Translations under genes and position numbers: made by a program
In this document: positions 22,094-36,141 of the stretch, piece by piece
Position numbering within the stretch: the stretch's first letter is position 1
How the letters are laid out: every line of letters starts with the position of its first letter
Source of the DNA: a virus
Reading direction: 5' to 3' (one strand)
IMG/VR virus record: IMGVR_UViG_3300050132_000309
Location: 1 to 45,906 of that record
DNA: 45,906 nucleotides
Notes under the pieces: model-generated
Seen by the model: the letters and a program-made list of their open reading frames with translations, nothing else
Databases searched by the model: none
Told to the model about the DNA's origin: nothing

Positions 22094-24976
22094 CTAGATC
22101 CAATCCAAACGATTTCGCATCTGCTTCTTCTTTGAATAAATTTCCAGTTTCTTCAAATGATCGTTCCCACTCGTAATCAGCATCCCCGCGCCCGTGACCG
22201 TCGGATCTTTCATCCACTGTGGCATCTGACCACGAGCAGGAGAGAAGCCTGCCGATTCAATCTCCTCTTTGGTGAGCATAATATTGCGAGGCGCGATAGG
22301 GTGACAAGCGGTAGGGTGGTTCTGCTCCAACGCAATCCAGCCGAGGAAGCCTGAGTTGTGAACCGCCACTCCCTGCGCTTGGTAAGTATGGTCGCCCTCC
22401 ACGTCAAGATTGAACACCGGACCTGAGTAAGGGACCAGTTCCAGAGATTTGATTGGTGCCCAGAAGCCATCGTCCGTCTCAACAACGTGCCGTTTATGAA
22501 ACTTCCTCTCGACGGAGTGGAACTTAGATATACCGACAAACCGCTCGATGAACTCAGCAGAAGCGCATAGAGTCCAAATCTCCTGACTCTTTGGCTTACT
22601 AATCGTAGACCAGATTCCCTCATCAATCAGTATCTGCCTAATCTGATGAATCAGTACACGAGACGTGCTGCTCGCGTGGACTGAGTTGCGCTGCCCCTTC
22701 GGCTGCGACCCGTCACCCGACATAAACGCGCCAACAAGAGGAAGCAGTCCAGAGCAGTTATATACGGAGGGGTGAATTTTCCGAACCTGCTGCAACCCAC
22801 CAGCGAACTTCGTAAAGAACTCATGCCAGTAGCGCGAGTAGTAGATAACTCGAATCGCGTTCTTACCCTTCACGGGTTCTATATGCGGCGGATTGTTGCC
22901 TGAATTAGCTGGCGGATCATATTTGCTCATAACTGCGCACAAGCGTTCGGCAATCTCTTGCTCAGACGAATTAAGCCCAAACGCCACCAAATAACTCTTA
23001 CTTTTTTTATTTCTATAGCAACGCGACCCCTCGGCCAAATACCAGCCTAAAATCCATAGCTGGTCGTCCGTTAACTCAGGACAAGACAGGTTCTTCCGTT
23101 TCGGAAAAAGAACGGAATCCCCTAAAACCAATTCGCTCGCAGCCTTCCATGACGGAGGAGCGAGTTGCCGCTTAGCTCTAATCAGTTCCCCGTTGCGCTT
23201 ATTCCACCCGTACCTGCACACATAGTATGGGTGGTTAGTAGTCGAACGATCAGGTTCAGGATTTCCCACAACACCAATATGAACTAAAGATTCGCTCACT
23301 TCGCGTGACATTGTTTTCTGAACTTGGTGCAGTTCTCCGGTATGCGTACGCACAAGTTCACCGGCCTTTATATCACGTATAAAGACAAGCCCCTCCGAAG
23401 TTTCCACTAAAGTATCGGGACTTTTGCACATCAATACATCGTCGTGGCCAACTGAAACAGTCCAACGCCAGTTCATCTCCAGCTTGGCCTTCTTCATTTG
23501 TTCGACGAATATCTTATCCTTCGGCACGACTCTCTTCTCATGCAGCGCAGTGCGGAACAACGAAAACATCATCTTGCGATAACGGTCGGAAGTTTCAAAT
23601 CCGTAAGCCGTGCCATGCTTCGAACGATCAGCGCGGTCGTCGCGGCCTTTCCAGAGATACTGATTGGGATAATAGTAAGTGTCCCTGAGAGCCTTCATGG
23701 TCACGTAGCCGATGTTGTTCAGCTCAACATTCAGCATCGCGCCGTTGAAGTAGTAACCAATCGCAGCCGCAGCAGGGGCCAATTCTTCTGGTGAGACCCT
23801 GGACATATACCGCGCAGCAAGGTCGCCAGTCTCTGCGTTCCAAACCACAATTGCTGCGTAGTCACCAGGAGCCATAGTTGATTCTTCGCCACGAGCCGAG
23901 TCTACTCCCGCGAAGTAATGGTGACCCTTCTGCGGGGTCTCGTAAACGACGAGTGGACCGTCTGTTCCTTTCTGGAGTTGGCCGTGTTTTTGGTCGGCGG
24001 TAAGAACACACCGGCCCTGCCATGGTATTTTTACAATGGCGTTCTGCGCGAATTGCATCTCCTCGATGGTGAAAGCTGGGTTGCCTGTGGCGACGAAGGC
24101 TTCTTCTGGGGTAGATGGGTACTCGGCCCTCCATTTTTCAAGGATACCCTCGCACTTCGTAGAAAGAGTTTCGCGGAACCAAGCTATCTGCGACTTAGTA
24201 AGATGAACTGTTTTTCCTGTCTTCCAATGCTTGATGTCGTTCATCAAGAATTTTTCATACTCGTCGCGCGGGGCGTCAAGCGCGAACTCTTCCGGTAACT
24301 GATATGCAGGATCATCCCACCACGGCAAGAAAATCGGCAGAAACTCATTATCGCCCGCAACCGCAGCTTCCCACGCTTGGTAGTACGCTTCGCCGGGGCC
24401 TTCAAGTCCGTTGGCCGTGCTTTCGATTATGACGATGTTGTTGGGATCTTTGCTCACCGTATTCATAAGCGATGTGAAAGCCCCCACATAGGGGTAAAAG
24501 GCCGCTTCGGTTAAGTGGAGAAACGAAGAAGTCAACCCACGCTGACCATGGACCGTCGCCGCAGTGTGGTGAGTAAACTGAGAATCCGGGCCGTCAGAAT
24601 GAGGCCAAATGAGAGTCCTCTTAGTTGGCTTCGGAGCACCAGGATATAACTCACGACAGTCTTCTCGAAAGCTGCAAGCCATAGCGAAATTCGCCGCTGC
24701 GACCTCAGCGTTTTGTGCGATGCAACGCGCGAGAGCGCCAGGATGTGCGATGCAGTGGGCCTGACCGATCCCGGTCGCAAGCGTAGATAGCCCTACGCGC
24801 CGTGCTTTGCAAAAGATGCCAAAAAGCCGGCGACGCCGAGCAAGATGCTCTTTAAATTGCTCTATCACCTGTTGCTGCTGATCGCGAAGATGAAAACTAT
24901 TAAAAGACCCCGCGTCACGGTCACGGATATTCAAGTTGCCAAAATACCGAACTACGTGATCAAGGTTGAGAGGCAA
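22094..24976 (-). CDS. terL: Large terminase subunit containing an intein
   Basis: 960-aa precursor; excision of the intein would give about 602 aa, normal for terminases. Start is TTG at 24976 with AGGAG eight bases before. ATPase: Walker A KARRVGLST (57-65), Walker B FLHLTE with catalytic E157, and coupling motif IIESTANG (183-190). RNase H-like nuclease: D359 in YFAGVDS, E418 in LNVELNN, and the third acidic motif GHDD (510-513). The intein follows three residues after this motif. The protein cuts and pumps phage DNA into the prohead. A classical small-terminase gene is not obvious nearby. The HNH endonuclease gene sits 18 bp upstream. Confidence 0.97.
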   Translation of the reverse strand: MPLNLDHVVRYFGNLNIRDRDAGSFNSFHLRDQQQQVIEQFKEHLARRRRLFGIFCKARRVGLSTLATGIGQAHCIAHPGALARCIAQNAEVAAANFAMACSFREDCRELYPGAPKPTKRTLIWPHSDGPDSQFTHHTAATVHGQRGLTSSFLHLTEAAFYPYVGAFTSLMNTVSKDPNNIVIIESTANGLEGPGEAYYQAWEAAVAGDNEFLPIFLPWWDDPAYQLPEEFALDAPRDEYEKFLMNDIKHWKTGKTVHLTKSQIAWFRETLSTKCEGILEKWRAEYPSTPEEAFVATGNPAFTIEEMQFAQNAIVKIPWQGRCVLTADQKHGQLQKGTDGPLVVYETPQKGHHYFAGVDSARGEESTMAPGDYAAIVVWNAETGDLAARYMSRVSPEELAPAAAAIGYYFNGAMLNVELNNIGYVTMKALRDTYYYPNQYLWKGRDDRADRSKHGTAYGFETSDRYRKMMFSLFRTALHEKRVVPKDKIFVEQMKKAKLEMNWRWTVSVGHDDVLMCKSPDTLVETSEGLVFIRDIKAGELVRTHTGELHQVQKTMSREVSESLVHIGVVGNPEPDRSTTNHPYYVCRYGWNKRNGELIRAKRQLAPPSWKAASELVLGDSVLFPKRKNLSCPELTDDQLWILGWYLAEGSRCYRNKKSKSYLVAFGLNSSEQEIAERLCAVMSKYDPPANSGNNPPHIEPVKGKNAIRVIYYSRYWHEFFTKFAGGLQQVRKIHPSVYNCSGLLPLVGAFMSGDGSQPKGQRNSVHASSTSRVLIHQIRQILIDEGIWSTISKPKSQEIWTLCASAEFIERFVGISKFHSVERKFHKRHVVETDDGFWAPIKSLELVPYSGPVFNLDVEGDHTYQAQGVAVHNSGFLGWIALEQNHPTACHPIAPRNIMLTKEEIESAGFSPARGQMPQWMKDPTVTGAGMLITSGNDHLKKLEIYSKKKQMRNRLDWI
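22355..23428 (-). other. Intein with LAGLIDADG homing endonuclease domain (in the terminase)
   Basis: Residues 517-874 (358 aa). Block A begins at Cys517 (CKSPDTLVETSEGLVFIRDI); block B has the TxxH motif in RSTTNHPYYV; LAGLIDADG-type helices are LGWYLAEGS (about 643-651) and LVGAFMSGDGS (about 747-757); the C-terminal block reads FNLDVEGDHTYQAQGVAVHN, ending His-Asn before Ser875. All residues for class 1 splicing (Cys1, block B His, terminal His-Asn, Ser+1) are present, so it should splice. The two DOD motifs retain acidic residues, so the endonuclease may be active. Confidence 0.95.
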
Positions 24977-24994: not shown

Positions 24995-25705
24995 CTAAGC
25001 CCTAGCAAATTCTCCGAACAACTTACGGGAAGCCTCTTCGTACAGCCTTCCACCTTCTTCTGCGGTATCTGTCATCCCCAAATGAATTTCCACACCCATA
25101 TGGGTTATCCTAGCCTCAAATCTGCCCGTCTCTTTATTACCCCATCTTGCGTGACGCACGCCTTTGATTCCTGTTCTGTTGTCCCGTCGCACTGCTTTAT
25201 TTGTTTCATTTTGTCTGCGCGTGGCTGGGCGAAGATTCTCATCCCTATTATCAAGCGAATTACAGTTGATGTGCTCCGCTTCCCTTTCATCCTCTCCCGG
25301 CGCCCCTAGGCCAAGAATCTGCCGAGCCATAGACACATCGGACTCTGGCCCACTACGCTTCCCATGGCGGTACGCATAATACCTGGCGTCCAAAAGAGAA
25401 GCGGACCATTGCCAGCGCTGCAACTCCGCTATCCTGTACGGACTGACTAGAGCTACTTTACCCTTAGTCAATGGGACGTACCCTATTCCATCCGCGACCC
25501 AGCATTTGCGAACGCTCAGATCGTCGCACGATCTGCACTGACCGTTCAACAATTTACACTGCATCACGTGGTAGACAGCCCCGCACACGCATCTACACAC
25601 CCATGCTGGAGCCTTTCCGTAATTGCCGTAAAAACTCAGCACAGTCCACGAATCAAATACTTGACCTGTCAGGTCCATCTTGGGGTATGCTCTTGTTGGG
25701 GTCAT
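24995..25705 (-). CDS. HNH homing endonuclease with AP2 DNA-binding domain
   Basis: 236 aa, ATG at 25705. The N-terminal part has a Cys cluster (WVCRCVCG, then QCRSC; about 36-60) that could bind zinc. The HNH motif is at about 143-170 (AEHINCNSLDNRDENLRPAT, then QNETN), and an AP2-like domain covers about 177-233 (TGIKGVRHARW, FEARITHMGVEIHLGM, LYEEASRKLFGEFA). It sits directly upstream of the terminase, which itself holds an intein. The start codon and SD lie inside a structured 61-nt leader shared with the endonuclease at 33185-33748. It is probably a free-standing mobile gene. Confidence 0.9.
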   Translation of the reverse strand: MTPTRAYPKMDLTGQVFDSWTVLSFYGNYGKAPAWVCRCVCGAVYHVMQCKLLNGQCRSCDDLSVRKCWVADGIGYVPLTKGKVALVSPYRIAELQRWQWSASLLDARYYAYRHGKRSGPESDVSMARQILGLGAPGEDEREAEHINCNSLDNRDENLRPATRRQNETNKAVRRDNRTGIKGVRHARWGNKETGRFEARITHMGVEIHLGMTDTAEEGGRLYEEASRKLFGEFARA

Positions 25706-25758
25706 GGTCGTTCCTCCTGAACGATTAGGCTTGCCGGGTGCTCAAACACCCTGACCCC
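25698..25758 (-). ncRNA. Structured 61-nt leader of the HNH endonuclease (copy 1)
   Basis: In RNA numbering, 1-7 (GGGGTCA) pair with 55-61 (TGACCCC, including part of the start codon); 8-12 pair with 19-23; 36-40 pair with 46-50 around AGGAG, so the SD is in or next to a hairpin. The linker 24-35 (GGCAAGCC, Y, AAT) is almost unchanged in the second copy at 33741-33801, which has the same length. Base changes in the stems compensate. Such a structure should limit translation of the endonuclease or sense a signal. Confidence 0.8.
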
Positions 25759-25761
25759 ACA

Positions 25762-25767
25762 AGTATA
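25762..25767 (-). promoter_or_regulatory. -10 box TATACT of the HNH endonuclease gene
   Basis: TATACT on the minus strand ends 3 nt before the structured leader, exactly as TAAACT does at the second endonuclease. Transcription would begin at the first G residues of the leader. No good -35 is visible at 17 nt, so promoter strength is uncertain. Confidence 0.55.
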
Positions 25768-25769
25768 CC

Positions 25770-25970
25770 TCATCTGGGCCACCTTTTCCCCTCAAACAAC
25801 CCCAGCGGGTCCGGTCCCTCGCCAGGCAATAGCATCAACTCGCGATAACTTCCAGTCGGCGGATACCTACGCACAAACTCCCGCGTCACATCTGACCGAG
25901 GCTGCTCGCCATACTGCGGCCAGAGTTCGCAGATCGTGTCGTAGAGACGGTCAGCGGGAGAAGGCGTCAC
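25770..25970 (-). CDS. Small protein of unknown function
   Basis: 66 aa, GTG at 25970 overlapping the previous stop as GTGA, with AGGAGG before it. Tyr/Trp/Arg-rich (DRLYDTICELWPQYGEQPRS, FVRRYPPTG). It is the last gene of the leftward small-gene operon before the endonuclease. Function unknown. Confidence 0.6.
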   Translation of the reverse strand: MTPSPADRLYDTICELWPQYGEQPRSDVTREFVRRYPPTGSYRELMLLPGEGPDPLGLFEGKRWPR

Positions 25971-26263
25971 GCGTCCTCCTGCACCGGGTATTCCCCTGGC
26001 ATAGCCAACTGCAACGAAATTGGCATCATCGGCCCATGATGCGGCTGACCCAGTACCAGAGCCGCGCCGGCAGCGATCAATGCACGTTCAGCGGCGGTCA
26101 AGCGATACCGGGCCAAAGAACAAGGAACACCTGCGTTATTCTCGCCACCTGCAAACCATATCCGGGCGACGATGATCGGCAGATACTCGGGCTGGTCAAG
26201 AGCAATAACCTGCTCACAAGGGACTTCAGCAGTGGTGAGAACCGGCGAGACAGAATCCATCAC
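25967..26263 (-). CDS. Unknown protein (98 aa)
   Basis: Start GTG at 26263, or the ATG next to it; it overlaps the upstream stop. Mixed alpha/beta composition with Leu/Pro/Ala-rich parts (RYRLTAAERALIAAGAALVL). Both ends overlap neighbours by a few bases, indicating translational coupling in the small-gene operon. No family recognised. Confidence 0.6.
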   Translation of the reverse strand: MMDSVSPVLTTAEVPCEQVIALDQPEYLPIIVARIWFAGGENNAGVPCSLARYRLTAAERALIAAGAALVLGQPHHGPMMPISLQLAMPGEYPVQEDA

Positions 26264-26574
26264 TGCACCCGTTTCAAAGCCGGCGCGTGCAAATCCGTGA
26301 TGATCCGTGAGACCTGCTCAGTCTGCTCGCCGCGCGCCGCGATATGCTGGTCCACCACGGACAGCGCTTCAAGCAGGTCCTGCCGTGAGGCTTTCTCCAG
26401 GCCACCGGGAACGAGCAGAATCGGGTTGGAATACTTCGAGAACCCCACCCCCTGCTGAGTCATCTCCAAGAAAGTGGACATGGCCTCTTGCGACTTGACA
26501 ATCACAATATCGTCAGGGCCAAGTTGGAGCTTCTCTACGGACTCGCGAAGAATGTCTTCGTATTTCTGGCTCAC
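26260..26574 (-). CDS. Unknown protein (104 aa)
   Basis: GTG at 26574 overlapping the upstream stop (GTGA) with AAGGGG upstream. Helical and acidic (YEDILRESVEKLQLGPDDIV, then a C-terminal helix HIAARGEQTEQVSRIITDL). It is coupled to both neighbours. Not recognised. Confidence 0.6.
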   Translation of the reverse strand: MSQKYEDILRESVEKLQLGPDDIVIVKSQEAMSTFLEMTQQGVGFSKYSNPILLVPGGLEKASRQDLLEALSVVDQHIAARGEQTEQVSRIITDLHAPALKRVQ

Positions 26575-27164
26575 AGAATATCCCCTTGTTCGCGCCCGTC
26601 GAACCGCAGCTTGTTACGTTCCTCTTTGGGCAGCATCTTCTCGCGATTGCGCTCACGAATACACTGCGGACCGCAGTAGCGATACGGCATCGGCACGCCT
26701 GTCTCCGGGTCCACTTCAGAACCTTGCATCAAAAATTGTGACTTCCGAGCTTCCTCAAGTGTCTTCCCGCAGCCGGTGCACCGTTCCGTGTTGCCTTCAT
26801 CCATGCGGCCCTGCAACGTCTCAGCCGCGAGGTTACACTGATGCCTCATCTTGGCCAGCATTTCCAAGCCAGAGGCGACCGGCAACTTGCGGAAGTAGTT
26901 CCTGACCTCCAACTCAGTCGCAGAAAGCGCAAGCTGGGCAGCGACGTTGGCGGCAGCCAAGGTGGAATAGGGATTGCGAGGATTGATGGGTGCGGCATGT
27001 GGGACAGCCAGGCCCGCTGCCAAGTCCGCTGCTAGTTCTGCTGCCTCAGCCTCGGCACGCTGTGCCTGAAGAGGGGAAGCGTGCTGACGAGCAGGGGCTG
27101 CGACGGGAACGGCGCCAAGCCCTTGCGTGGGCTGGCCAGAGTGAACTGCTGCGAGACGAGACAT
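26571..27164 (-). CDS. Putative zinc-ribbon protein
   Basis: 197 aa from the ATG at 27164 (AAAGGA before it); the frame extends 29 codons further up but overlaps the previous gene by 65 bp. The N-terminal half is Ala/Gln-rich and helical. The second half has CTGCG (about residue 141) and CGPQC about 37 residues later, a likely single zinc site, followed by a basic helix (IRERNREKMLPKEERNK). It may bind nucleic acid. Confidence 0.6.
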   Translation of the reverse strand: MSRLAAVHSGQPTQGLGAVPVAAPARQHASPLQAQRAEAEAAELAADLAAGLAVPHAAPINPRNPYSTLAAANVAAQLALSATELEVRNYFRKLPVASGLEMLAKMRHQCNLAAETLQGRMDEGNTERCTGCGKTLEEARKSQFLMQGSEVDPETGVPMPYRYCGPQCIRERNREKMLPKEERNKLRFDGREQGDIL

Positions 27165-27186
27165 TGATGATCCTTTCGGTTCTGGG

Positions 27187-27726
27187 TTAATACATCTGTA
27201 ATTCACGCTGAGCTGATTCTTTCGGCGATAGCGGCGCGCGTGGGTCACCATACAAGTGAAGCATAAGTTCTGAGGCGCGCGCCACCCTGGTCCAGTAAGC
27301 CTCTTCAGTCTTAAACTCTTCCCTGCTGGCTACGTGGTCGTCCATCTGAGGGCAGAGCTTCCCGTTGACCGCCATCTGGATGTGAAGATTACCGTTGCCA
27401 AGAATTTTGTACGAGACCAACTCGTATTTGCCGTCCCTACTCCGCCTCGCTACCGAGTCCCAGCCGATCGTCGTCGGCTGCTGCCGGTACATCTGAGGCT
27501 GACAGGCCACAGGCGGCGCAGTCATCAGCCCACCTGACTGCGCAAGTGAGCTCCTGACCTCACGCTTGTAAAACTCATCGGTCATCACGCGCACGGAAAG
27601 TTTGTGATTCACGTCGCGGCACGCCTGGCAGCCAAAGACATGCGCATGATCCTTCGTCTGGAGGAAGATCATCTGGCGCGGGAGACTGGCCGGGTGCTGC
27701 GGATTCGTACAAATGGGAGGATTCAT
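27187..27726 (-). CDS. Putative zinc-binding protein (179 aa)
   Basis: ATG at 27726 with AGGGA upstream. The N-terminus has a possible zinc site: Cys6 with His11, then FGCQACRDVNH (Cys33, Cys36, His41). The middle is beta-rich (DGKYELVSYKILGNGNLHIQ). The C-terminus is helical. Only 10 bp separate it from the next gene upstream. The family was not recognised. Confidence 0.55.
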   Translation of the reverse strand: MNPPICTNPQHPASLPRQMIFLQTKDHAHVFGCQACRDVNHKLSVRVMTDEFYKREVRSSLAQSGGLMTAPPVACQPQMYRQQPTTIGWDSVARRSRDGKYELVSYKILGNGNLHIQMAVNGKLCPQMDDHVASREEFKTEEAYWTRVARASELMLHLYGDPRAPLSPKESAQRELQMY

Positions 27727-27736
27727 ACAGTTGTCC

Positions 27737-28522
27737 CTACCTGATGTTCTTCAAACTACGGTCCCACGTCATGACCTGACCTTCGCCATGGCATACAGGG
27801 CACGCACCTTGGAACCCTGCCTCGCCGACAATCTGGCCTGCGCCAGCGCAGCGGCCGCAAGGCCGACCGGTGGTGGCAAGGTTGCGTGGTTCACGTTTGC
27901 GAGGGGCAGCTTTGACTTCAACAGGCTCTGCTGGCACGGCTGGCTCCTGACCTGCTTGGATGGCTTGCTGATCCTGGAATCGACGATCCTCAGCAACCTT
28001 GGCTTGGTCCTTCTCGGCCTGTTCCGCTTCAGCGAGAAGCCGGTCCATCTCTGCCAAGGCCAACTCTGGAGCGGGTGGCGCCGCGGCATCCTGGAAGATT
28101 TGTGGCTTGCGACGGGTCCCGGTCCCGTCGCGCCGTTTGGCCGGAATGACAACTGGATCGCTCGGGCCTGGAGTAGGCGTGGGAGACTCTCCTGTGGCCT
28201 GCTCACCGGTTGCGCCGGATTCGAGGTCCGCAGCAAACTGGTCCTGGATGTCAGGATCTTCGTTAAAAACAAGAGCTTTGCGCGCACGCTCAGCAGAGGC
28301 CGCACCCTTCGCCATCAAATCTGATTCTGCCCCAGGCCCGTTCCGCTTCATCACCCGCATCTCGCCATCAGAAATTACGGTCACGCGCTTGGCTGCGGCG
28401 GCCAGAGGCAAAATAGCTTGAGCCATCGCCTTACCAATCGCACCGGTGGAGTTGATGATGAAGTCTCCGTCGTCGAGGATGACAGAGAGAGCGGGCTTAA
28501 CCGATTCAATTTCTTGGGTCAT
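27737..28522 (-). CDS. Protein with C-terminal DnaJ-type zinc finger
   Basis: 261 aa, ATG at 28522 overlapping the upstream stop (ATGA), AAGGAAA before. The N-terminus (SVILDDGDFIINSTGAIGKA) may be a small domain; the centre is Ala/Glu/Arg-rich and probably disordered. Near the C-terminus CGRCAGAGQIVG followed by CPVCHGEGQV repeats the CxxCxGxG pattern of the DnaJ central zinc finger, giving one complete zinc site. No J domain is present. Function unknown. Confidence 0.6.
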   Translation of the reverse strand: MTQEIESVKPALSVILDDGDFIINSTGAIGKAMAQAILPLAAAAKRVTVISDGEMRVMKRNGPGAESDLMAKGAASAERARKALVFNEDPDIQDQFAADLESGATGEQATGESPTPTPGPSDPVVIPAKRRDGTGTRRKPQIFQDAAAPPAPELALAEMDRLLAEAEQAEKDQAKVAEDRRFQDQQAIQAGQEPAVPAEPVEVKAAPRKREPRNLATTGRPCGRCAGAGQIVGEAGFQGACPVCHGEGQVMTWDRSLKNIR

Positions 28523-28767
28523 GCAATTTCCTTCGAGAAGAATTCCTCTGGCAGTTCTTCACACTTAATAACCGGAACTGCAAACACTCGATGCGAGAAC
28601 GGACAGGTTGGATGTGTAGGGTGAGAAGCCACAACGTATAGAGGAGCAGTAGTACACGGGAAAGCCTTCTGCTCAACGTAGCAATGCATCCCACACTCAG
28701 CACAGACACATAGATTCTGTGGGAACTGGTACACGCCTGTCATGGGCATAGACGCAACCTGACTCAT
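28519..28767 (-). CDS. Small Cys-rich protein
   Basis: 82 aa from the ATG at 28767, which overlaps the previous stop (ATGA) and has GAGGAG nine bases before; an upstream ATG would overlap the neighbour by 49 bp. Cysteines in LCVCAECGMHCYV and a later HPTCPFSH suggest a zinc site. Function unknown. Confidence 0.6.
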   Translation of the reverse strand: MSQVASMPMTGVYQFPQNLCVCAECGMHCYVEQKAFPCTTAPLYVVASHPTHPTCPFSHRVFAVPVIKCEELPEEFFSKEIA

Positions 28768-28946
28768 ACGCTTCTCCTCGATCTTTCCACTGCTTTTGCC
28801 ATATCCGCGCACGCCTCACCAAACTCCGCGCCGGTCATCTCAGCCAACCGTTTCCTCGGCCTGCGCCGCTCAGGGACTTGAAGATCGCGCTCCCCCCAAC
28901 TGATCGCGCCACCGCCGTCGGACTGTTCATGTTCGTTGGCGCTCAT
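28764..28946 (-). CDS. Small acidic/basic protein (60 aa)
   Basis: ATG at 28946 overlapping the upstream stop (ATGA). Polar N-terminus with Gly/Ser, then a basic patch (PERRRPRKRLAEMTG) and a helix (EFGEACADMAKAVERSR). Coupled on both sides. Function unknown. Confidence 0.55.
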   Translation of the reverse strand: MSANEHEQSDGGGAISWGERDLQVPERRRPRKRLAEMTGAEFGEACADMAKAVERSRRSV

Positions 28947-29302
28947 GCTTTTGGCCCCTTCTCTAAACGCGCTCGCAGTCTCTCAAGCGCCTCCTCCGCA
29001 GTCTTAGGAGGCTCTGCTTTTACATACGTATCCCTCTCCAACACAGCAGGCACAGGACGTACCGGACCCGCTTTCACTTTTCCTATGACCCAGACAGAAT
29101 GCGCAACTCCTCCATCCTTATCTTTGGCTTTTGGCCATTGATCCAAAGAAGGAAGCCCCTCGCGCTTACGCCAAGGTATCAGAGGCTTACAATCGTTAGA
29201 GATCCCAAAGGCGCGGAGCGAAAGCGCAACTCGTAACTTCTCACTCCAGTGAGAGATAGCAGTCACTATCTCATACAGTCTGGCAATCAGATTCATCTTC
29301 AT
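28943..29302 (-). CDS. Unknown protein (119 aa)
   Basis: ATG at 29302 overlapping the upstream stop, GAGGA before it. It shares the phrase KREGLP with the next gene upstream (both have LxxRKREGLP in similar context), suggesting a common short module. The C-terminus is a charged helix (KTAEEALERLRARLEKG). Not recognised. Confidence 0.6.
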   Translation of the reverse strand: MKMNLIARLYEIVTAISHWSEKLRVALSLRAFGISNDCKPLIPWRKREGLPSLDQWPKAKDKDGGVAHSVWVIGKVKAGPVRPVPAVLERDTYVKAEPPKTAEEALERLRARLEKGPKA

Positions 29303-29844
29303 CGCGGTCCTCGTTTCAGATATTCCTGCAACCTCTGATCCACTTCCTCGTCACCCACGCCATCCAGCACGAGGTCCGGAGCCTGCTCACCTTCGGCGCC
29401 GTGACTGACACGCTCGGCCCGCTTATACGTTGCGGCGTCCCGATGCAGGTCAACCAACTCGTCAGCCAGATTCCGGCCGTCCTCGGCTACATCCAGAATC
29501 TCAAACGCGAAGTGGCCTTCCGCCCAGTTCCGTGTGGCGTCCTCCAACGGCGCGCCCTTGCGCGTCCCGATCGCAAATGCACCAGGTTTGCCATCGCGCC
29601 CGGCCCCGGCAAACAGCACTCTGCTGACCTCAGCCCCGTCCAGCCGGTAGTAGCGTGCATTACCGGAGTCGTCGAGCCGGGTTTCAAGAGGGCTGCCATC
29701 GGCGTCTACCGGCCCCGGCAGCCCCTCACGCTTGCGGAGGGAGAGAAGGTTGGCGAGACGATAGGCTTTGCGCATCTCAAACCAATCACCGACCCTCTGC
29801 ACGGCGCGGGCGGGATTAAAGATGGAGTCTTCAAACATCGGCAT
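29299..29844 (-). CDS. Unknown protein (181 aa)
   Basis: ATG at 29844 with a perfect GGAGG eight bases before; a longer frame adds 8 residues with no SD. Acidic overall; contains YRLANLLSLRKREGLPG, paralleling the downstream gene, and an acidic C-terminus (GVGDEEVDQRLQEYLKRG). No family recognised. It overlaps its upstream neighbour by 14 bp. Confidence 0.6.
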   Translation of the reverse strand: MPMFEDSIFNPARAVQRVGDWFEMRKAYRLANLLSLRKREGLPGPVDADGSPLETRLDDSGNARYYRLDGAEVSRVLFAGAGRDGKPGAFAIGTRKGAPLEDATRNWAEGHFAFEILDVAEDGRNLADELVDLHRDAATYKRAERVSHGAEGEQAPDLVLDGVGDEEVDQRLQEYLKRGPR

Positions 29845-30190
29845 TGGGAACCTCCTCTGTCGGCTCATCCGCAGGCGCCAGCCTCACCCCGTCCAGTGAC
29901 TTCAGCCAAGCCAGCAACTGCTCACGAAACCATTCTACGGTATCGACATCCTTGCACAAGACTGTCGCGCTCTCGCCAAGGAGCCATCTATAGGCCGGCT
30001 TCGGATGAGTTGTCGTCCCCGGGCCATAGCATCCAACCATAACTCTCAGCCTCGCGGCGCCCATCTCGCCAAGGCACGCCTCAAACACCTCGACGTTGGC
30101 GGGTTCATCAGCTAGGCTGGCAGCCTTCACTTCAACACGGATGCTATCTTCATTCCACTGAGTTTTTGGTAAACGGGGACGGGGGCTCAA
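29831..30190 (-). CDS. Unknown protein (119 aa)
   Basis: TTG at 30190 is chosen because it overlaps the previous stop as TTGA and has AAGGTG at good distance. A longer frame exists but would overlap the 60-aa gene by 130 bp. Mixed alpha/beta with an aromatic helix (VDTVEWFREQLLAWLKSL). Function unknown. Confidence 0.55.
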   Translation of the reverse strand: MSPRPRLPKTQWNEDSIRVEVKAASLADEPANVEVFEACLGEMGAARLRVMVGCYGPGTTTHPKPAYRWLLGESATVLCKDVDTVEWFREQLLAWLKSLDGVRLAPADEPTEEVPNADV

Positions 30191-30369
30191 TGTTTCACCT
30201 TGACTTCCTTGATCCGGTACACCTCGTCCGGAAATCGCTGCTGCGCCCTGGCCAGCGCCACCTTCGCCGCACGCGCTGAGACTGGCCGGCCACGAAGAGT
30301 CCAGGACGACGGGCGCCACCGGCCAGAGGTTTTGACCTGGATTACGAATTTCTTGGGCTTCTCAGCCAT
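30187..30369 (-). CDS. Small basic protein (60 aa)
   Basis: ATG at 30369 overlapping the previous stop (TAATG). Beta-strand start (PKKFVIQVKTSGRWRPSSW), a helix (ARAAKVALARAQQRF) and a basic end. It resembles small phage proteins that wrap or modify other proteins, but the family is not certain. Overlap and length support a real gene. Confidence 0.6.
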   Translation of the reverse strand: MAEKPKKFVIQVKTSGRWRPSSWTLRGRPVSARAAKVALARAQQRFPDEVYRIKEVKVKH

Positions 30370-30515
30370 TATGCGACCTGCTTCCTTCGCGCCAAGGCTT
30401 CCCGGCGCAATTTGTTCGCGTACTTGACCAACTCCGCTTTCGGCAATGCCGGCCCATACTTTAAACGGCGAAGGATGGCCTGGCGCTCGGCGGGAGTGAG
30501 GACTGGATCACTCAT
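30369..30515 (-). CDS. Small basic helical protein (48 aa)
   Basis: ATG at 30515, overlapping the previous gene; stop overlaps the next start (TAATG). The product (PVLTPAERQAILRRLKYGP, then ANKLRREALARRKQVA) is basic and helical. The tight overlaps on both sides argue that it is translated although very short. Confidence 0.55.
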   Translation of the reverse strand: MSDPVLTPAERQAILRRLKYGPALPKAELVKYANKLRREALARRKQVA

Positions 30516-30967
30516 GCCAACCACCTTCTTCCTGCGCGCTGCTCAACCTCCGCGCGCTGCTTTTTGGTTTCCTGCCGCTCGCCTGACTTGACTGTGCGCT
30601 TCGATTTGTGGGTCATGACGATCTGTGACCATGCACGGCCAATCGAGTAGTCGAATTCAGATCCGGGCTGAAAAATACGACGCGCCTCTTCTTCGCTCAC
30701 CGGCCACGCTTCCATCTCCATGCCTGTCGTTCTGTACCGCACATGGAGAGTCGGACCGGCGGGGCGAAGAGTGCGGCCACTGGCTTCGTCAAGGAGAGAT
30801 GGAGCATCAGGGGTCCATTCGAGCCAGGAGAAGACACGGGATGGAGCTGGGTCGAGACGGAGGACCGTGGTGGGGGCTTTGGCGTTGGTGGGGGAGGGAG
30901 AATTCATTACGAAACGAAGCATAGCACAGCGATGGTAGGTTTGCAATAAATTATTTTCTGAGCTCAC
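30512..30967 (-). CDS. KTSC-like domain protein
   Basis: 151 aa. The GTG at 30967 overlaps the previous stop as GTGA with AGGTG upstream, the same arrangement as other gene pairs here. After a polar N-terminus, residues about 70-120 (LHVRYRTTGMEMEAWPVSEE, then RIFQPGSEFDYSIGRAW) resemble the KTSC domain, found in phage and bacterial proteins of uncertain role. The C-terminus is Lys/Arg-rich. A promoter lies inside the 5' end (30918-30946), so a shorter form starting at 30907 could also be made. Confidence 0.5.
   Translation of the reverse strand: MSSENNLLQTYHRCAMLRFVMNSPSPTNAKAPTTVLRLDPAPSRVFSWLEWTPDAPSLLDEASGRTLRPAGPTLHVRYRTTGMEMEAWPVSEEEARRIFQPGSEFDYSIGRAWSQIVMTHKSKRTVKSGERQETKKQRAEVEQRAGRRWLA
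30918..30946 (-). promoter_or_regulatory. Leftward promoter TTGCAA-N17-TATGCT with extended -10
   Basis: On the minus strand TTGCAA (30946-30941), 17 bp, then TATGCT (30923-30918) preceded by TGC (extended -10). It shares the -35 TTGCAA with the leftward promoters at 33139-33166 and 33805-33833. The predicted start would lie just ahead of the ATG at 30907 in the KTSC-like gene. Confidence 0.55.
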
Positions 30968-31215
30968 CAACACATCACCTGAAAAATCCACAACGGCTCA
31001 TTTTGCCCCGACACAACCTCCGGACGGCACTCGAACGAGTAGCGATGGCCAGCAAACGCCCCAAAGGGCTGGAGAATGAACTCACCCCGGTCATAGGCCA
31101 CATAATGCGGACCCGAGAACCTATAGTCCATACAGGCGAGACAGTCGTTGTACTGCCGCAGGACCTGACGAGCCGCGTTGGCCCATTCAGACCGACGAGG
31201 CTTATTTGCAATCAT
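30964..31215 (-). CDS. Unknown protein (83 aa)
   Basis: ATG at 31215 overlapping the upstream stop (ATGA); GGAGG eight bases before. Aromatic-rich (YNDCLACMDYRFSGPHYVAY, EPLWIFQVMCW). Its own stop overlaps the KTSC-like gene start. Function unknown. Confidence 0.6.
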   Translation of the reverse strand: MIANKPRRSEWANAARQVLRQYNDCLACMDYRFSGPHYVAYDRGEFILQPFGAFAGHRYSFECRPEVVSGQNEPLWIFQVMCW

Positions 31216-31484
31216 TCTGTGCCTCCCGCCGCCTGCGCAACCCGGCTCACCACTCCTGCGTCATGCAGCACCATCGCTTTCGGACCCTCTTTCACTATCG
31301 CAGTTACCGAACTACGAAACGCATCGTAATACCACGGCAAGCCTTCTGGGATCCAACTGATGAAAGACACCTGCGCTAGACCCTCATAGAGAATATGCTT
31401 ACCGATCTTTCGGGTCATATATACCGTTCCATCACCCCGCTTAAAGTAGCTCTCACGGACTTCAACCATGCCGTCATCTCTCAT
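31212..31484 (-). CDS. Unknown protein (90 aa)
   Basis: ATG at 31484 overlapping the previous stop, GGAGGAG before. Beta-type start (VEVRESYFKRGDGTVYMTRK) and aromatic centre (FISWIPEGLPWYYDAF). The C-terminus SRVAQAAGG is nearly the same as the end of the HTH gene two positions upstream, due to a 20-bp DNA repeat. Function unknown. Confidence 0.6.
   Translation of the reverse strand: MRDDGMVEVRESYFKRGDGTVYMTRKIGKHILYEGLAQVSFISWIPEGLPWYYDAFRSSVTAIVKEGPKAMVLHDAGVVSRVAQAAGGTE
31231..31250 (-). repeat. 20-bp repeat at a gene end (copy 1; copy 2 at 31799-31818)
   Basis: The plus-strand 20-mer beginning GCCTGCGCAACCC is exact at 31231-31250 and 31799-31818, at the 3' ends of two genes and directly before the SD of the next gene. 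It encodes the same C-terminal residues in both (VSRVAQA). Confidence 0.8.
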
Positions 31485-31786
31485 TCTGCTCCTCCTGCTG
31501 CCCGCTTTGCCTCTCGCTTCGCCTCGCGCTCTGCCCAGTACGGATGCATGTGCCCATACCTGCCACCAATCACAGGCTTAGCCCACGACTCCTCGACCCA
31601 CTGAAATATCTGGCGAGCGGAGATTGGAACGCCGCGTTCCTCGCCATAGTGAATCCCGCCTTGATGGTCCGCAGTGTAGACGCGGTCAATGACAGCCTCC
31701 ACAGGCGGCTCCCCGGCATCTAGCCGGTCGATAAGCAAAACCTGGACATTAGTCCCATCACCAATACTGCTGAATTCGATTTTCAT
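31481..31786 (-). CDS. Unknown protein (101 aa)
   Basis: ATG at 31786 overlapping the upstream stop, GGAGGAG before. Beta-rich N-terminus (KIEFSSIGDGTNVQVLLIDR) and Lys/Arg/Glu-rich C-terminal helix (WAEREAKREAKRAAGGAE). No function recognised. Confidence 0.6.
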   Translation of the reverse strand: MKIEFSSIGDGTNVQVLLIDRLDAGEPPVEAVIDRVYTADHQGGIHYGEERGVPISARQIFQWVEESWAKPVIGGRYGHMHPYWAEREAKREAKRAAGGAE

Positions 31787-32436
31787 TCCGCTCCTCCTGC
31801 CTGCGCAACCCGGCTCACTGCCATCTGGCCCACGCCGACCAGCCCCCCAATAACCGCTTGGCTCAGTCCGCGCCCATCATCCGGGTCCGTCCAGGCAAGC
31901 CAACCGAGAATCTCAGCCTTCTGCGCCGCCGTGATTCTCGGCCCTCGGGGCATGGCCAGTCCCGCGACCCGGCGGCAGCGCCAGCAGTTGCAACCGAGTT
32001 GGACGACCTCCCCATCCACCCCTATCTTCTCCCTTGCCCGCTCCCACGTTCCATGCAGCGGCTTGACAGCTTTGGCACGGAACCCCAAGGCCGCGGCGGC
32101 CGACAGGCTGAACCCAAGTTCTTTGGCCACCGCGGAAGCCGACTCGCCCACTGCGACCCGGGCACGCAATTCAGCCAAGCACGCCTCGGCCTTGGCGCGC
32201 TCCGGCGCCGGGCGTGGCCCAGGCAGACAGCAGGAGGGCCGGTAAAGCCTTCCGGCCAGCCAACCAACCTTCTGCCGGCTGACTCCGAGTTGGTCAGCAA
32301 CCCGACGCAAAGTGATGTGGGGATGCTCAAGAAGGTAGTGACGCAAGTGGGCGCGAAACTCGGGAGGGGAAAGAGTCAGGCGCGCAGGCTCAAGATCAGC
32401 GAGGTGGAGAGCGGGGGAGGAAATGGGACTGTTCAT
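31783..32436 (-). CDS. Multi-HTH DNA-binding protein (regulator or terminase-small-subunit candidate)
   Basis: 217 aa, ATG at 32436. Three HTH-like segments are visible: ITLRRVADQLGVSRQKVGWL (about 40-60), GESASAVAKELGFSLSAAAA (about 97-116), and LSQAVIGGLVGVGQMAVSRV (about 191-210). A Cys cluster (LGCNCWRCRR) at about 148-157 could bind zinc. Its own promoter lies directly upstream over an AT-rich palindrome, suggesting autoregulation. Arrayed HTHs also occur in small terminase subunits, and no other candidate for that role is evident. Confidence 0.6.
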   Translation of the reverse strand: MNSPISSPALHLADLEPARLTLSPPEFRAHLRHYLLEHPHITLRRVADQLGVSRQKVGWLAGRLYRPSCCLPGPRPAPERAKAEACLAELRARVAVGESASAVAKELGFSLSAAAALGFRAKAVKPLHGTWERAREKIGVDGEVVQLGCNCWRCRRVAGLAMPRGPRITAAQKAEILGWLAWTDPDDGRGLSQAVIGGLVGVGQMAVSRVAQAGGAE

Positions 32437-32442
32437 AGTGTA

Positions 32443-32471
32443 ACCCTACCACGGCAATATTATATTGTCAA
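32443..32471 (-). promoter_or_regulatory. Promoter TTGACA-N17-TAGGGT within an AT-rich palindrome
   Basis: TTGACA (32471-32466) is followed after 17 bp by TAGGGT (32448-32443). Transcription would begin at or next to the ATG of the multi-HTH gene. The -35 lies in a near-palindrome (32456-32480, AATATTATATTG mirrored by TCAATATATTATT), a likely operator. Confidence 0.6.
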
Positions 32472-32565
32472 TATATTATTTAGAATTGTTGGGGCCACCG
32501 GGGGTATATCCGCAGCAAGGACCAAAGTGGCAGGCAGACTGCCGACGAACTTTCCCTTTTCAAAA

Positions 32566-32748
32566 TCAGTCTGGGGCATCGATGGCCTCCGCCATATTTC
32601 GGCTGTACTCGCCCAACATCTTCCCGCACCGCTTGCAATGCAGACTGCCAATCTCCTGAAACCCGTCGTGCGTGCGATAGAACACCGCGGGAACCTGGGT
32701 GGATCGGTGGCCGCGCAGAAGACAGATCAACTTGCGGATTAGGCGCAT
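32566..32748 (-). CDS. Small protein with CxxC motif (60 aa)
   Basis: ATG at 32748 with AAAGG upstream, overlapping the previous gene by 10 bp. Basic N-terminus (RLIRKLICLLRGHRST), beta phrase (AVFYRTHDGFQEIGSLHC), and CKRCGKMLGEY. A similar layout (GHR..., C..CG) is common in small phage zinc proteins. Followed by a 129-bp gap that holds the next gene's promoter. Confidence 0.65.
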   Translation of the reverse strand: MRLIRKLICLLRGHRSTQVPAVFYRTHDGFQEIGSLHCKRCGKMLGEYSRNMAEAIDAPD

Positions 32749-33110
32749 TGCTGTTTACCTTTCGCTTCTTCTTTACCCACCGTCATATCCACCGGCGCCA
32801 ACTCAATCCGCTGATCATCCGGATTCCACTGATACCTTTTCCCAGGGTCCAGCCCATAAGCCTTTACGGCCCAGTCCCACCAGCGCCGCCTATCCGCGGC
32901 CAGCGCACGAAACTGTTCCACCACATAGCGATTCATGGACTGAATGTAAGCGTCCAGTCCCATCTGGCGATCAGCAATCTCGCACATCGTGCGCGCGGAA
33001 TTGGGGGACGGCCAAATTTTGTCATCCAGCTTCTCATATCCTTCACCGCCATTGGCGGTCATCAGGTGCTCCCCACCGTGAGGGGTGTAGTCGTGGGTAT
33101 CTTTGGACAT
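32739..33110 (-). CDS. Unknown protein (123 aa)
   Basis: ATG at 33110 with AAAGGAG upstream. Polar N-terminus, then a long helix (SARTMCEIADRQMGLDAYIQ, FRALAADRRRWWDWAV) with several Trp and Arg. It is the first gene of the small-gene operon; the promoter at 33139-33166 lies directly before it. Function unknown. Confidence 0.65.
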   Translation of the reverse strand: MSKDTHDYTPHGGEHLMTANGGEGYEKLDDKIWPSPNSARTMCEIADRQMGLDAYIQSMNRYVVEQFRALAADRRRWWDWAVKAYGLDPGKRYQWNPDDQRIELAPVDMTVGKEEAKGKQQCA

Positions 33111-33138
33111 TCGAGGGACTCCTTTGCATCACGAGGAA

Positions 33139-33166
33139 ATAATACCACAGTCCGATTAGTTTGCAA
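33139..33166 (-). promoter_or_regulatory. Leftward operon promoter TTGCAA-N16-TATTAT with extended -10
   Basis: TTGCAA (33166-33161), 16 bp, then TATTAT (33144-33139) preceded by TGG (extended -10) on the minus strand. It lies just upstream of the first gene of the long overlapping small-gene operon and is the best candidate for its main promoter. Confidence 0.75.
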
Positions 33167-33184
33167 GCAATTAAACCGCGCGCC

Positions 33185-33748
33185 TTACTTCGCCGCCCTG
33201 CCCAACTCCAGTGCAGCCCGAACACTTGACGGCTCATCCCCGAAGTTAGCAAACTCCCCATGCAGAGCCTTAGCCGCCTCGCAATAAGCCACGTGCGCCT
33301 CCTCAGGAGTGCTAAACATCCCGAGAACACGATGCTTCCCGCGTGCCATTATCTGTGCCATCCATCTGCCTTTCCACGCGCTCACTCCCTTAAACCCGGA
33401 TGTATTGTTTTTAGGCAGGCGTTGGTTTTGCATGTTTTCTGTGTGGGTGCATATACGTAAATTTATTCGACGGTTATCGAGGGGATCACCATTGATGTGG
33501 TCCACCCGACGAGGGTCACCGCGCTCCAGTCCAAGAATTACTCGGCCCAATTGAAGGGAAGTGCATCTCCAACGACCGTTAGGCATTTTCTCTAGGAAAG
33601 AACGAACCACATAATAATTTTGTGAATTTTCATTCCAGCGCGTGCGCCACGCTACCTGGCAGTGCTTGGCGAAGTCTTCACGATCAATTAAGAACTTTCT
33701 TCCGTGTTTTACTGTAACTTCGATGTATTCTGATTCTGAAGGGGTCAC
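33185..33748 (-). CDS. Second HNH homing endonuclease with AP2 domain
   Basis: 187 aa, GTG at 33748. HNH motif at about 82-108 (RVDHINGDPLDNRRINLRI, then HTENMQN), AP2 domain at about 115-170 (TSGFKGVSAWKGRWMAQI, HRVLGMFSTPEEAHVAYCEA, HGEFANF). Its leader and promoter layout are the same as for the HNH gene at 24995-25705, and both proteins start Met-Thr-Pro because the start lies in the leader stem. It is the first gene of the leftward block, just past the control region. Confidence 0.9.
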   Translation of the reverse strand: MTPSESEYIEVTVKHGRKFLIDREDFAKHCQVAWRTRWNENSQNYYVVRSFLEKMPNGRWRCTSLQLGRVILGLERGDPRRVDHINGDPLDNRRINLRICTHTENMQNQRLPKNNTSGFKGVSAWKGRWMAQIMARGKHRVLGMFSTPEEAHVAYCEAAKALHGEFANFGDEPSSVRAALELGRAAK

Positions 33749-33801
33749 TGTCGTCCTCCTGTGACGATTGGGCTTGCCGGAGGTTACAGCCTCCTGACCC
33801 C
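33741..33801 (-). ncRNA. Structured 61-nt leader of the second HNH endonuclease (copy 2)
   Basis: Same 61-nt length and layout as 25698-25758. The stem at RNA positions 10-21 and 11-20 changes G-C to A-T and T-A to G-C; position 39-47 changes T-A to C-G. The outer GGGGTCA/TGACCCC stem is kept, with GTG instead of ATG as start codon. Single-stranded segment 24-35 is conserved apart from one pyrimidine change. Confidence 0.8.
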
Positions 33802-33804
33802 CTC

Positions 33805-33833
33805 AGTTTACTAGACCTAGTCCACAATTGCAA
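33805..33833 (-). promoter_or_regulatory. Promoter TTGCAA-N17-TAAACT of the second HNH endonuclease
   Basis: TTGCAA (33833-33828), 17 bp, TAAACT (33810-33805), then 3 nt to the structured leader. Same -35 as the other leftward promoters. Confidence 0.65.
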
Positions 33834-34633: not shown

Positions 34634-34927
34634 GTGCTCTTCTTAGTCGATTCGGACGCAACCTATTACGCGCACTATTGCCGTGCGAACGTTTGCATAA
34701 TCGAAGACTGGGACACTCGCCGGGTAACGGTCTCAGCATACATCGGCACAGCTCCAAACGATACAACCGTTATCGTTTACCCGTATAGCAAAGATGAAAT
34801 GGACTATCTGAGCAAGGCAAACGCGCGCAAGCTCGCAACACAATTTAAGCGGGAATTGCGGGAATACGTCAAAGCGAAGGGAATCAAACTCTCTGAGCCC
34901 ATAGCGTACACGGAGTACTTTCAATAG
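34634..34927 (+). CDS. Unknown protein (97 aa)
   Basis: GTG at 34634 with GGAGGAAACACC before. Alternating beta (MLFLVDSDATYYAHYCRANV, VIVYPYSK) and a basic helix (ANARKLATQFKRELREYVKA). Flanked by paired hairpins on both sides. Function unknown. Confidence 0.65.
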   Translation: MLFLVDSDATYYAHYCRANVCIIEDWDTRRVTVSAYIGTAPNDTTVIVYPYSKDEMDYLSKANARKLATQFKRELREYVKAKGIKLSEPIAYTEYFQ

Positions 34928-34932
34928 TCGAA

Positions 34933-34990
34933 ACGCGGGCGCCCACTGCCCGCGTCTATCGGGACCGCTCGCCCGATACTGAAGAGACAG
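34933..34990 (+). other. Paired intergenic hairpins (module 2)
   Basis: ACGCGGGC pairs with GCCCGCGT (34933-34955); TATCGGG pairs with CCCGATA (34957-34978); then CTGAAGAGACAG. The gap before the next gene repeats this plan at 35721-35775 with different but compensated stems. Confidence 0.75.
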
Positions 34991-35010
34991 AGCAAAGGAG
35001 AATCAAAGCA

Positions 35011-35715
35011 ATGGACTATCACACTTTCACTGCTAAACTAACGGGACGCAATTCCCGGTCCCGTAAAATTGCCAACCATACGACACTGCATAGGATTGAT
35101 GCCTCTACTATCGCAGTTCAACTTCACTCCACGGATGTAATAACATTCCATGAAGACGGCCGGATCGTCTTCGACTCCGGCAGATGGAAAACTTCCACCA
35201 CTAAAGAGAGAATAAATTCATTCTCGCCGGCGTGCGTATCGCAGGCCGCCGGATCATGGGAGATCACAATTGACGGCTCCGCTGCTAACTTTGCGGATGG
35301 TATCACGTGGACTGGTAAGAAGTGGCAAGGTACCGGCGAAGATCCGAGCAAAGCTGTAAAGCTGGCGAAACGCGCGGCAAAATTCGCGCGCGATTATATG
35401 GCCGCATTCGACGCCGGCAAGGTTCCGGCGCCGTCTGGCGGTGATTGTTGGGGTTGCCTTATGAAAACGGCCGATGGTAAGACGCCCATGGGCGGAGCAA
35501 GTCACATTCTTGACCATATGGAAGAAAAATATTATGTGCCGTCACTGCTACAACGCGCGATAGAACGCTTCCCAGTTGCGCCAGTTGCAATGTGGTATAT
35601 CAGCGATAAGTGGGCAGGCACGGATAACGGACCGTGGGCCGCGGGCATTGGCAAGGAACAGCTCTACAAGTCACTGTACAGATTCTGCAAAGCTGAGCTC
35701 GGACTAGCAGCATAG
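35011..35715 (+). CDS. Unknown protein (234 aa)
   Basis: ATG at 35011 with AAAGGAG upstream. The first part is beta-rich (FTAKLTGRNSRSRKI, TIAVQLHSTDVITFHED), then aromatic and charged segments (DGITWTGKKWQGTGED, MEEKYYVPSLLQRAIERF), and a helical end. It could be a small enzyme or nucleic-acid-binding protein; no motif is diagnostic. The downstream gene begins with the same residues MDYxT. It is flanked by hairpin modules 2 and 3. Confidence 0.65.
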   Translation: MDYHTFTAKLTGRNSRSRKIANHTTLHRIDASTIAVQLHSTDVITFHEDGRIVFDSGRWKTSTTKERINSFSPACVSQAAGSWEITIDGSAANFADGITWTGKKWQGTGEDPSKAVKLAKRAAKFARDYMAAFDAGKVPAPSGGDCWGCLMKTADGKTPMGGASHILDHMEEKYYVPSLLQRAIERFPVAPVAMWYISDKWAGTDNGPWAAGIGKEQLYKSLYRFCKAELGLAA

Positions 35716-35720
35716 TCGAA

Positions 35721-35775
35721 ACGGCGCCGCAATGCGCCGTCTAGCAGGAACGGCCGCCTGCTACTGAAGAGACAG
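35721..35775 (+). other. Paired intergenic hairpins (module 3)
   Basis: ACGGCGC pairs with GCGCCGT (35721-35740); TAGCAGG pairs with CCTGCTA (35742-35763), followed by CTGAAGAGACAG. Compared with module 2 the second stem has two compensating changes and the same loop length (8 nt). Confidence 0.75.
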
Positions 35776-35793
35776 GCCAGAAGAGGCACAGAA

Positions 35794-36141
35794 TTGAGCA
35801 TGGACTATCAAACGATACCCGAGCAAACAGAACCCGAGCTGATAGCGCGCTGGGAATCGCGCGGCGGCAAATACTGGATTGACCTGTATTTCAATCCCTG
35901 TTTTCACCTGGCGGACGGCACAGATGTTATCGATGCTCATTACCGCGGTGACGGTTGCGGCGGCCCGGTGACCTGTACGGATGAACTAACGGCCATTCTC
36001 GCCATGCAAGCGCAGATTGACCGCGGATACTTCCAAGCGGATGCAAACAAAACACCTATGCGCCGCGTACCGCCGATTAAATGCGATTGTTGCGGGCAGA
36101 TGGTGGAGCGGTCCCATCGGTGCGAGTATCCGCTTACCTAA
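35794..36141 (+). CDS. Unknown protein with C-terminal Cys site (115 aa)
   Basis: TTG at 35794 has AGAGG at seven bases; the ATG two codons later (35800) gives an MDYQT start like the MDYHT of the gene before, so it is an alternative. The C-terminus (CDCCGQMVERSHRCEY) may bind zinc. The rest is mixed beta/alpha. Function unknown. Confidence 0.6.
   Translation: MSMDYQTIPEQTEPELIARWESRGGKYWIDLYFNPCFHLADGTDVIDAHYRGDGCGGPVTCTDELTAILAMQAQIDRGYFQADANKTPMRRVPPIKCDCCGQMVERSHRCEYPLT

Follow-up and report, generated by a model that had tools for sequence, protein, structure and literature searches.

Two leaders in front of nuclease genes

The window analysed here is a 45,906-nucleotide (nt) stretch of viral DNA, positions 1 to 45,906 of IMG/VR record IMGVR_UViG_3300050132_000309, and our subject is a structured leader that occurs in it twice, each time ahead of a nuclease gene. 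Both copies are 61 nt long and lie on the minus strand, at 25698..25758 (copy 1) and 33741..33801 (copy 2), and the 3' end of each falls within the first codons of an HNH gene. The gene behind copy 1 (24995..25705, minus strand) encodes an HNH_3/AP2-type nuclease of 236 amino acids (aa) that starts at ATG with Met-Thr-Pro and matches Pfam HNH_3 at E 8e-4, weaker than the curated cut-off. Behind copy 2, the gene at 33185..33748 (minus strand) encodes an HNH_3 plus AP2 nuclease of 187 aa, which starts at GTG, again with Met-Thr-Pro (Pfam HNH_3 E 7e-8, AP2 E 4e-5). Since the two proteins share only ~32% identity, the leaders are not copies made by a recent duplication. A first-pass annotation of this DNA, made from the sequence alone, had given the positions and layout of both leaders exactly, each placed 3 nt after a -10 box (TATACT or TAAACT).

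Each leader can be drawn as an outer stem (P1), a hairpin (P2), a GG-CAAG-CC motif and a second hairpin (P3) that holds the Shine-Dalgarno (SD) sequence. In copy 1, P1 pairs 25758-25752 with 25704-25698, P2 pairs 25751-25747 with 25740-25736 and P3 pairs 25724-25719 with 25713-25708; the GG-CAAG-CC motif spans 25735-25728, a U at 25727 pairs with the start-codon A at 25705, and the SD sequence AGGAGG lies at 25718-25713. The corresponding elements of copy 2 are P1 at 33801-33795/33747-33741, P2 at 33794-33790/33783-33779, GG-CAAG-CC at 33778-33771, a C at 33770 that pairs with the start-codon G at 33748, P3 at 33767-33763/33755-33751 and the SD sequence at 33760-33755. Its outer stem extends to 33806/33736 and comprises 12 pairs including one G-U (CTGAGGGGGTCA/TGACCCCTTCAG), thereby reaching into the -10 box. 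The -10 boxes, TATACT at 25762..25767 and TAAACT at 33805..33810, stand in the same register to their leaders, and transcription is predicted to start at 25755 and 33798, respectively.

When folded as single sequences, both copies adopted the drawn structure: copy 1 at -26.9 kcal/mol (z -2.85; 0/200 shuffles equally stable) and copy 2 at -24.2 kcal/mol (z -1.85; 13/200 shuffles equally stable). The outer GGGGTCA/TGACCCC stem that had been reported for both leaders is there, as are the two compensating changes in stem 8-12/19-23. For stem 36-40/46-50, the compensating change at 39/47 holds, but the second copy is mismatched at 40/46, and an unlisted U-A pair (35/51) also closes this stem. Covariation from these two copies alone is weak support, which cannot be said of the 24-copy alignment described below.

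Copy 1 and its gene sit just 5' of the terminase large-subunit gene. Relatives of this nuclease gene with the same leader at the same site were found in four phages (G002, G004, G005 and G007); in these and in G000, a related HNH gene and leader lie directly 5' of the terminase gene. G013 has terminase-like sequence that is preceded by a different nuclease, again with this leader. The first-pass annotation had named unrelated leaders in close relatives as a finding that would count against it; the leader was present in 5/5 HNH-AP2 relatives having upstream sequence, a sixth being cut off there.

The terminase large-subunit gene adjoining the HNH gene (22094-24976, minus strand) is itself interrupted by an intein with a LAGLIDADG domain. 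A third HNH_3 gene of the window, at 40815-41105 on the plus strand, lacks this leader, and its start is preceded by an SD sequence inside the previous reading frame.

A leader family with a covarying fold

Homologues were collected by pattern scans of IMG/VR, by a covariance model run over whole contigs and by protein searches. At least 24 distinct copies were recovered (30-84 bits), 2 in the window and 22 in other viral contigs; they come from 20 viral records as well as L292 and L296. Of these copies, 17 served to build the model, including both window leaders, whose scores (84.4 bits for copy 1 and 75.4 bits for copy 2) are therefore those of training sequences. An architecture scan of 20 phage records, which also returned copy 2, gave 22 matches compared with 2.7 in shuffles, and 21 of these 22 belonged to the nuclease genes described here. 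Matches of the first scan pattern (GGCAAGCCNAAT...AGGAG) were, among the matches listed, mostly chance, and candidates L008/L082 and L158 (18-20 bits) were likewise treated as chance.

In the 24-copy alignment, 90.5% of cells were paired (81.1±0.9 when shuffled) and 40 cells were double-changed (11.8±2.5 when shuffled), with 0/500 shuffles reaching either value; sliding the partner columns by 1-3 abolished the signal. These counts are biased by the fitting of the alignment to the structure, although a first, unfitted alignment agreed, and because the leader sequences are related, the shuffle counts are not probabilities. The covariation supports all three stems. P1 variants change both arms together, as in GGTGTCA/TGACACC, GGGAGGGTCA/TGACCCTTCC (with one G-U) and GGGGATGTC/GACATCCCC. 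The shared, covarying multi-stem leader that had been proposed, related to the hairpins of phage T4 but more complex, is thus borne out, and chance or recent duplication as its origin is ruled out by this covariation together with the ~32% protein identity. A DNA operator palindrome alone can also be ruled out, because P2, P3 and the start-codon pair described next covary.

The mutual information, unprompted, ranked second an extra pair that joins the start codon's first base to the pyrimidine (Y38) of the core GG(A)CAAGCC-Y-AAU. The two are complementary in 24/24 copies (17 having U and AUG, 7 having C and GUG), with ~5 joint changes on a neighbour-joining tree of the rest of the leader, and the pair was seen with both core types and several nuclease types. 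Together with the A7-U and C6-G pairs of P1, this leaves all three start-codon bases paired. The first-pass annotation was correct that the structure encloses SD and start codon but missed this pair, and its view of GGCAAGCC as simply unpaired does not hold, given that Y pairs with the start codon and that GG/CC can pair (2 base pairs (bp), CAAG loop). This putative mini-hairpin is near-invariant and so cannot covary; variants are GGCGAAGCC, GGCCAAGACC and GGCC. If it forms, the helices would meet in a four-way junction nearly free of linkers. The core GG(A)CAAGCC is conserved beyond its helices, remaining nearly invariant while P2 and P3 drift, and is altered in two otherwise intact copies, GGCC in L221 and GGCGAAGCC in L222.

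With regard to downstream genes, 23/24 copies precede a phage nuclease gene (identified by Pfam, PHROGs or a readable HNH motif), presumably of the homing kind. Most are HNH_3/AP2 nucleases, so that a covariance search, as suggested in the first-pass annotation, does return matches ahead of HNH/AP2 genes. The proposed association with HNH genes was sound but incomplete, since non-HNH nucleases use the leader as well: besides HNH_3 alone (L021, L148 and L135, the last frameshifted), the downstream genes encode another HNH type (L130), an endonuclease VII (L126), a DUF559 protein (L129) and two HNH proteins of PHROG 374 type (L177). The sole non-nuclease case is a 43-aa open reading frame (ORF), the only ORF behind the L222 leader. 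Two nuclease genes are broken behind intact leaders, by an in-frame stop in L123 (756-1538) and a frameshift in L135 (6522-7219), as expected for decaying homing genes.

DNA similarity between unrelated nuclease genes often spans just ~60-75 nt, beginning near the -10 box and going no further than the outer stem, e.g., 92% over 65 nt between G009 and G010 and 82% over 74 nt between L129 (DUF559) and L149 (HNH/AP2). This limited extent points to the leader as an exchangeable module and not to a recent duplication.

Neither window leader matched any Rfam family, even at E 10, and the RNA family was not found in the open-access papers searched. The leaders are an RNA family new to Rfam, while the kind of regulation proposed for them is already known from T4. 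A blastn comparison of three leader variants with 50,697 phage records gave chance-level matches only, and all members known here accordingly come from metagenomic contigs. A strict pattern found no recognisable member in the scanned set of cellular genomes; its matches L195 and L196 had no covariance-model match and were set aside. Five of the closest isolate homologues (<50% identity) were examined: four belong to operons that lack this leader, and the fifth, from phage Tunturi_2, has its own upstream gap but no covariance-model match. No empty site was found among the records compared.

Other structures were noted near such genes. In Tunturiibacter phage Tunturi_2 (L300, 446-505), TATAAC is followed by GAGCAGG, which could pair, around the SD sequence and start of the HNH gene, with CCTGCTC early in the coding sequence; this may be chance. 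In G003 (23018-23082), TATACT and a GTGCGG/CCGCAC hairpin stand ahead of an HNH_3 gene and leave the SD sequence free. Three different contigs (L030, L037 and L094) share another recurrent element, GATGATGGCAAGCC, ...GATGATGGCAAGCCNAAT... AAGGAG, located after a hairpin and before an ORF.

Promoter register and possible modes of control

Counting two near-duplicates, 26 copies were available for promoter comparison. In 22/26 copies, exactly 6 nt separate the inner GTC from the end of a TANNNT box, which differs from the T4 late motif; the spacing is 7 nt in two copies and 4 nt in one, and the last copy has GATAAT at 6 nt. Neither an extended -10 nor a -35 element was detected above chance across the leader copies. 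The first-pass annotation had seen the -10 box 3 nt before the leader but not the fixed 6-nt register to GUC. The usual sigma70 discriminator measures 6-7 nt, and transcription is therefore predicted to start at the G of GUCA. The outer arm of P1 would then sit in the discriminator, upstream of +1, and the full clamp would exist only in read-through RNA.

The outer stem itself shows selection: its outer arm forms 104 pairs outside GTC:GAC with codons 2-4, compared with 58±6 when flanks are swapped between copies (0/5000 permutations). The computed mean cost of opening the start codon rose from 1.0 kcal/mol for RNA that begins at GUC to 4.7 kcal/mol for read-through RNA, whereas shuffled upstream sequence added just 0.7±1.4 kcal/mol. 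By crude ORF calls, roughly half of the 24 cassettes have the end of a same-strand ORF no more than ~25 nt from their -10 box, and so read-through RNA should exist.

We consider it probable that the leader is a portable cis-acting translational gate, a read-through silencer of phage homing-type nuclease genes that follows the logic of T4 I-TevI, segB and mobE. The RNA would form a junction of the outer stem P1, hairpin P2, the mini-hairpin GG-(A)CAAG-CC and hairpin P3 with the SD sequence, in which the first start-codon base is held by the core Y and the second and third by A and C in the GUCA on the 5' side. A promoter consisting of the -10 box, without a recognisable -35, would be fused to the 5' edge of the leader. 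RNA from this promoter would start at or near the G of GUCA, retain a 4-bp P1 and leave the start codon easily opened. Read-through RNA would add the G-rich discriminator, complete a P1 of 7-12 bp with codons 2-4 and remain untranslated, such that the nuclease would be made only upon firing of its own promoter, at whatever site the gene is inserted. The fold, the start-codon pairing, the promoter register, the covariation of the outer stem and the sharing by unrelated nucleases are read directly from the sequences; from them we infer the transcription start, the repression, its timing and the activity of the proteins as homing nucleases.

Several points weigh against this reading. The start codon is still weakly paired in the predicted own-promoter RNA, and were transcription to begin at the first G of GGGG instead of at the +1, which is only predicted, the full clamp would be present in both RNAs. 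The read-through penalty disappears in L148, P1 contains an A.C mismatch in L096 and L148 and a C.A mismatch in L185 and L187, and the copy at 33741 starts a leftward gene run without a long same-strand ORF upstream. The invariance of GUCA/UGAC is overstated through ascertainment and is partly a product of the search patterns, several of which held parts of P1; two P1-free patterns and the covariance search recovered the P1 variants. Moreover, a plain read-through silencer needs no core as conserved as GG(A)CAAGCC-Y-AAU.

This conserved core raises the question of an effector, a ligand or a host or phage protein that binds it at the junction and stabilises or opens the clamp. Conservation of the core exceeds what base pairing demands, in contrast to the drifting P2 and P3; each base of the start codon is sensed; and, because unrelated nucleases and phages share the core, any effector would have to be a factor common to cells or phages. 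We nevertheless regard such a switch as rather unlikely: neither the promoter register nor the pairing of the discriminator calls for an effector, no effector and no alternative fold are known, and the core is changed in the otherwise intact L221 and L222 and missing from a related clamp in G005 (35975). Judged by L221 and the G005 clamp, the clamp can keep its outline without the core, whose role may possibly be a tertiary fold that sets clamp strength. Also doubtful is a broader version, in which the leaders would be a mobile, nuclease-independent switch class whose junction RNA reads the start codon and whose core senses a common factor, passed between endonuclease families as a promoter-plus-switch cassette. 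Read-through silencing by a promoter-embedded stem explains more than the 'riboswitch-like' element of the first-pass annotation.

The 'self-regulating' element offered there as well has become less likely with the finding that unrelated nucleases share the core. Autoregulation would have the nuclease, or its AP2, zinc or helix-turn-helix DNA-binding part, shut down its own gene by binding to the leader RNA or, in DNA, to the GGGGTCA...TGACCCC repeat. It has a precedent in I-TevI, which autorepresses at an operator overlapping its late promoter (PMC2988022), and the inverted repeat here overlaps promoter and start. However, the proteins behind the leader (HNH_3/AP2, HNH, endonuclease VII and DUF559) have no DNA-binding part in common, P2, P3 and Y38-start covary as RNA, and P1 stays paired while its sequence varies, which makes this improbable. 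No more plausible is an unconditional 5'-end stabiliser or ribosome stand-by structure that shields a short mRNA and is readily opened by the ribosome; the leader does start at the predicted RNA 5' end, with its SD sequence in a hairpin loop and a low opening cost in the own-promoter RNA, but stability does not require pairing of every start-codon base, and the outer P1 pairs covary even though that RNA, beginning only downstream of them at the predicted +1, would not contain them. A self-cleaving ribozyme, or a guide RNA of an HNH nuclease of the HEARO/IscB kind, is highly improbable. Structured RNAs do occur beside HNH genes, and the window contains type II hammerheads in another region, yet neither leader matched an Rfam ribozyme model (hammerhead, twister, HDV and others) or HEARO even at E 10, the encoded proteins lack IscB domains (Pfam gave HNH_3/AP2 only for the window proteins), and the RNA, which takes in the start codon, also serves the non-HNH DUF559.

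The clamp in G005, the contig of L124/L125, deserves separate description. At 35945-35985 on the plus strand (L245), TATACT precedes a P1 of 9-10 bp over GTG in which the -10 box is embedded, and the interior is different and lacks the GGCAAGCC core. Its gene encodes an HNH_3/AP2 protein with a sigma-70 region 4-like N-terminus. Because the interior folds no better than shuffles (z 0.21), its relation to the family is uncertain.

The two type II hammerheads (Rfam RF02276; 45 and 49 bits) lie at 34926-34996 and 35714-35781 on the plus strand, opposite to the leaders, and flank the ORF at 35011-35715. Each starts at the TAG stop of the preceding ORF and is followed within ~20 nt on its 3' side by an ORF beginning ATGGACTATCA; they may cut the message between cistrons. 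None was found in the related phages G004, G005 and G007.

Relation to known leader systems

For a selfish nuclease gene within a phage operon, transcription of the neighbouring genes should not lead to its own expression, a problem that T4 solves gene by gene with hairpins. In the present family, regulation appears to move as a part separable from the enzyme, as one RNA with its promoter has come to serve four or more nuclease types across many phages that are otherwise unrelated. The covariation of a core base with the start codon (U/AUG, C/GUG) is direct sequence evidence that initiation-codon sequestration is under selection, and the covariance model can be used to find and annotate such genes and to predict Met-Thr-... 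protein starts in metagenomic phages.

Like translational riboswitches that mask a start codon, the leader is a 5' untranslated region with a conserved junction core and with start codon and SD sequence inside the fold; unlike them, it has no known ligand or alternative fold, and the core can be lost in intact copies. It resembles HEARO and the IscB omega RNA in being a structured RNA beside an HNH-encoding gene but differs in its length of 61 nt, its overlap with the start codon, the absence of an Rfam match, its non-IscB proteins and its occurrence before DUF559.

The closest parallels are leaders that sequester the ribosome-binding site, reported for T4 I-TevI, I-TevII, I-TevIII and segB and for Aeh1 mobE (PMC2988022, PMC3014915). 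The late promoter of T4 I-TevI is placed so that the late RNA lacks the 5' arm of the hairpin, and the same read-through silencing logic has been described for segB and Aeh1 mobE (PMC2988022, PMC3014915). Both these leaders and the present ones fold over the point where translation of a (here presumed) homing endonuclease gene begins, and both occur in read-through phage operons. For the present leaders, the -10 register in 22/26 copies predicts that RNA from their own promoter would likewise lack part of the 5' arm. Unlike the T4-type leaders, the present RNA pairs every start-codon base and tracks AUG or GUG. The T4 hairpins are described as gene-specific, whereas the several unrelated nuclease families in the present set share a single multi-stem RNA that has a conserved core and a promoter at a fixed distance.

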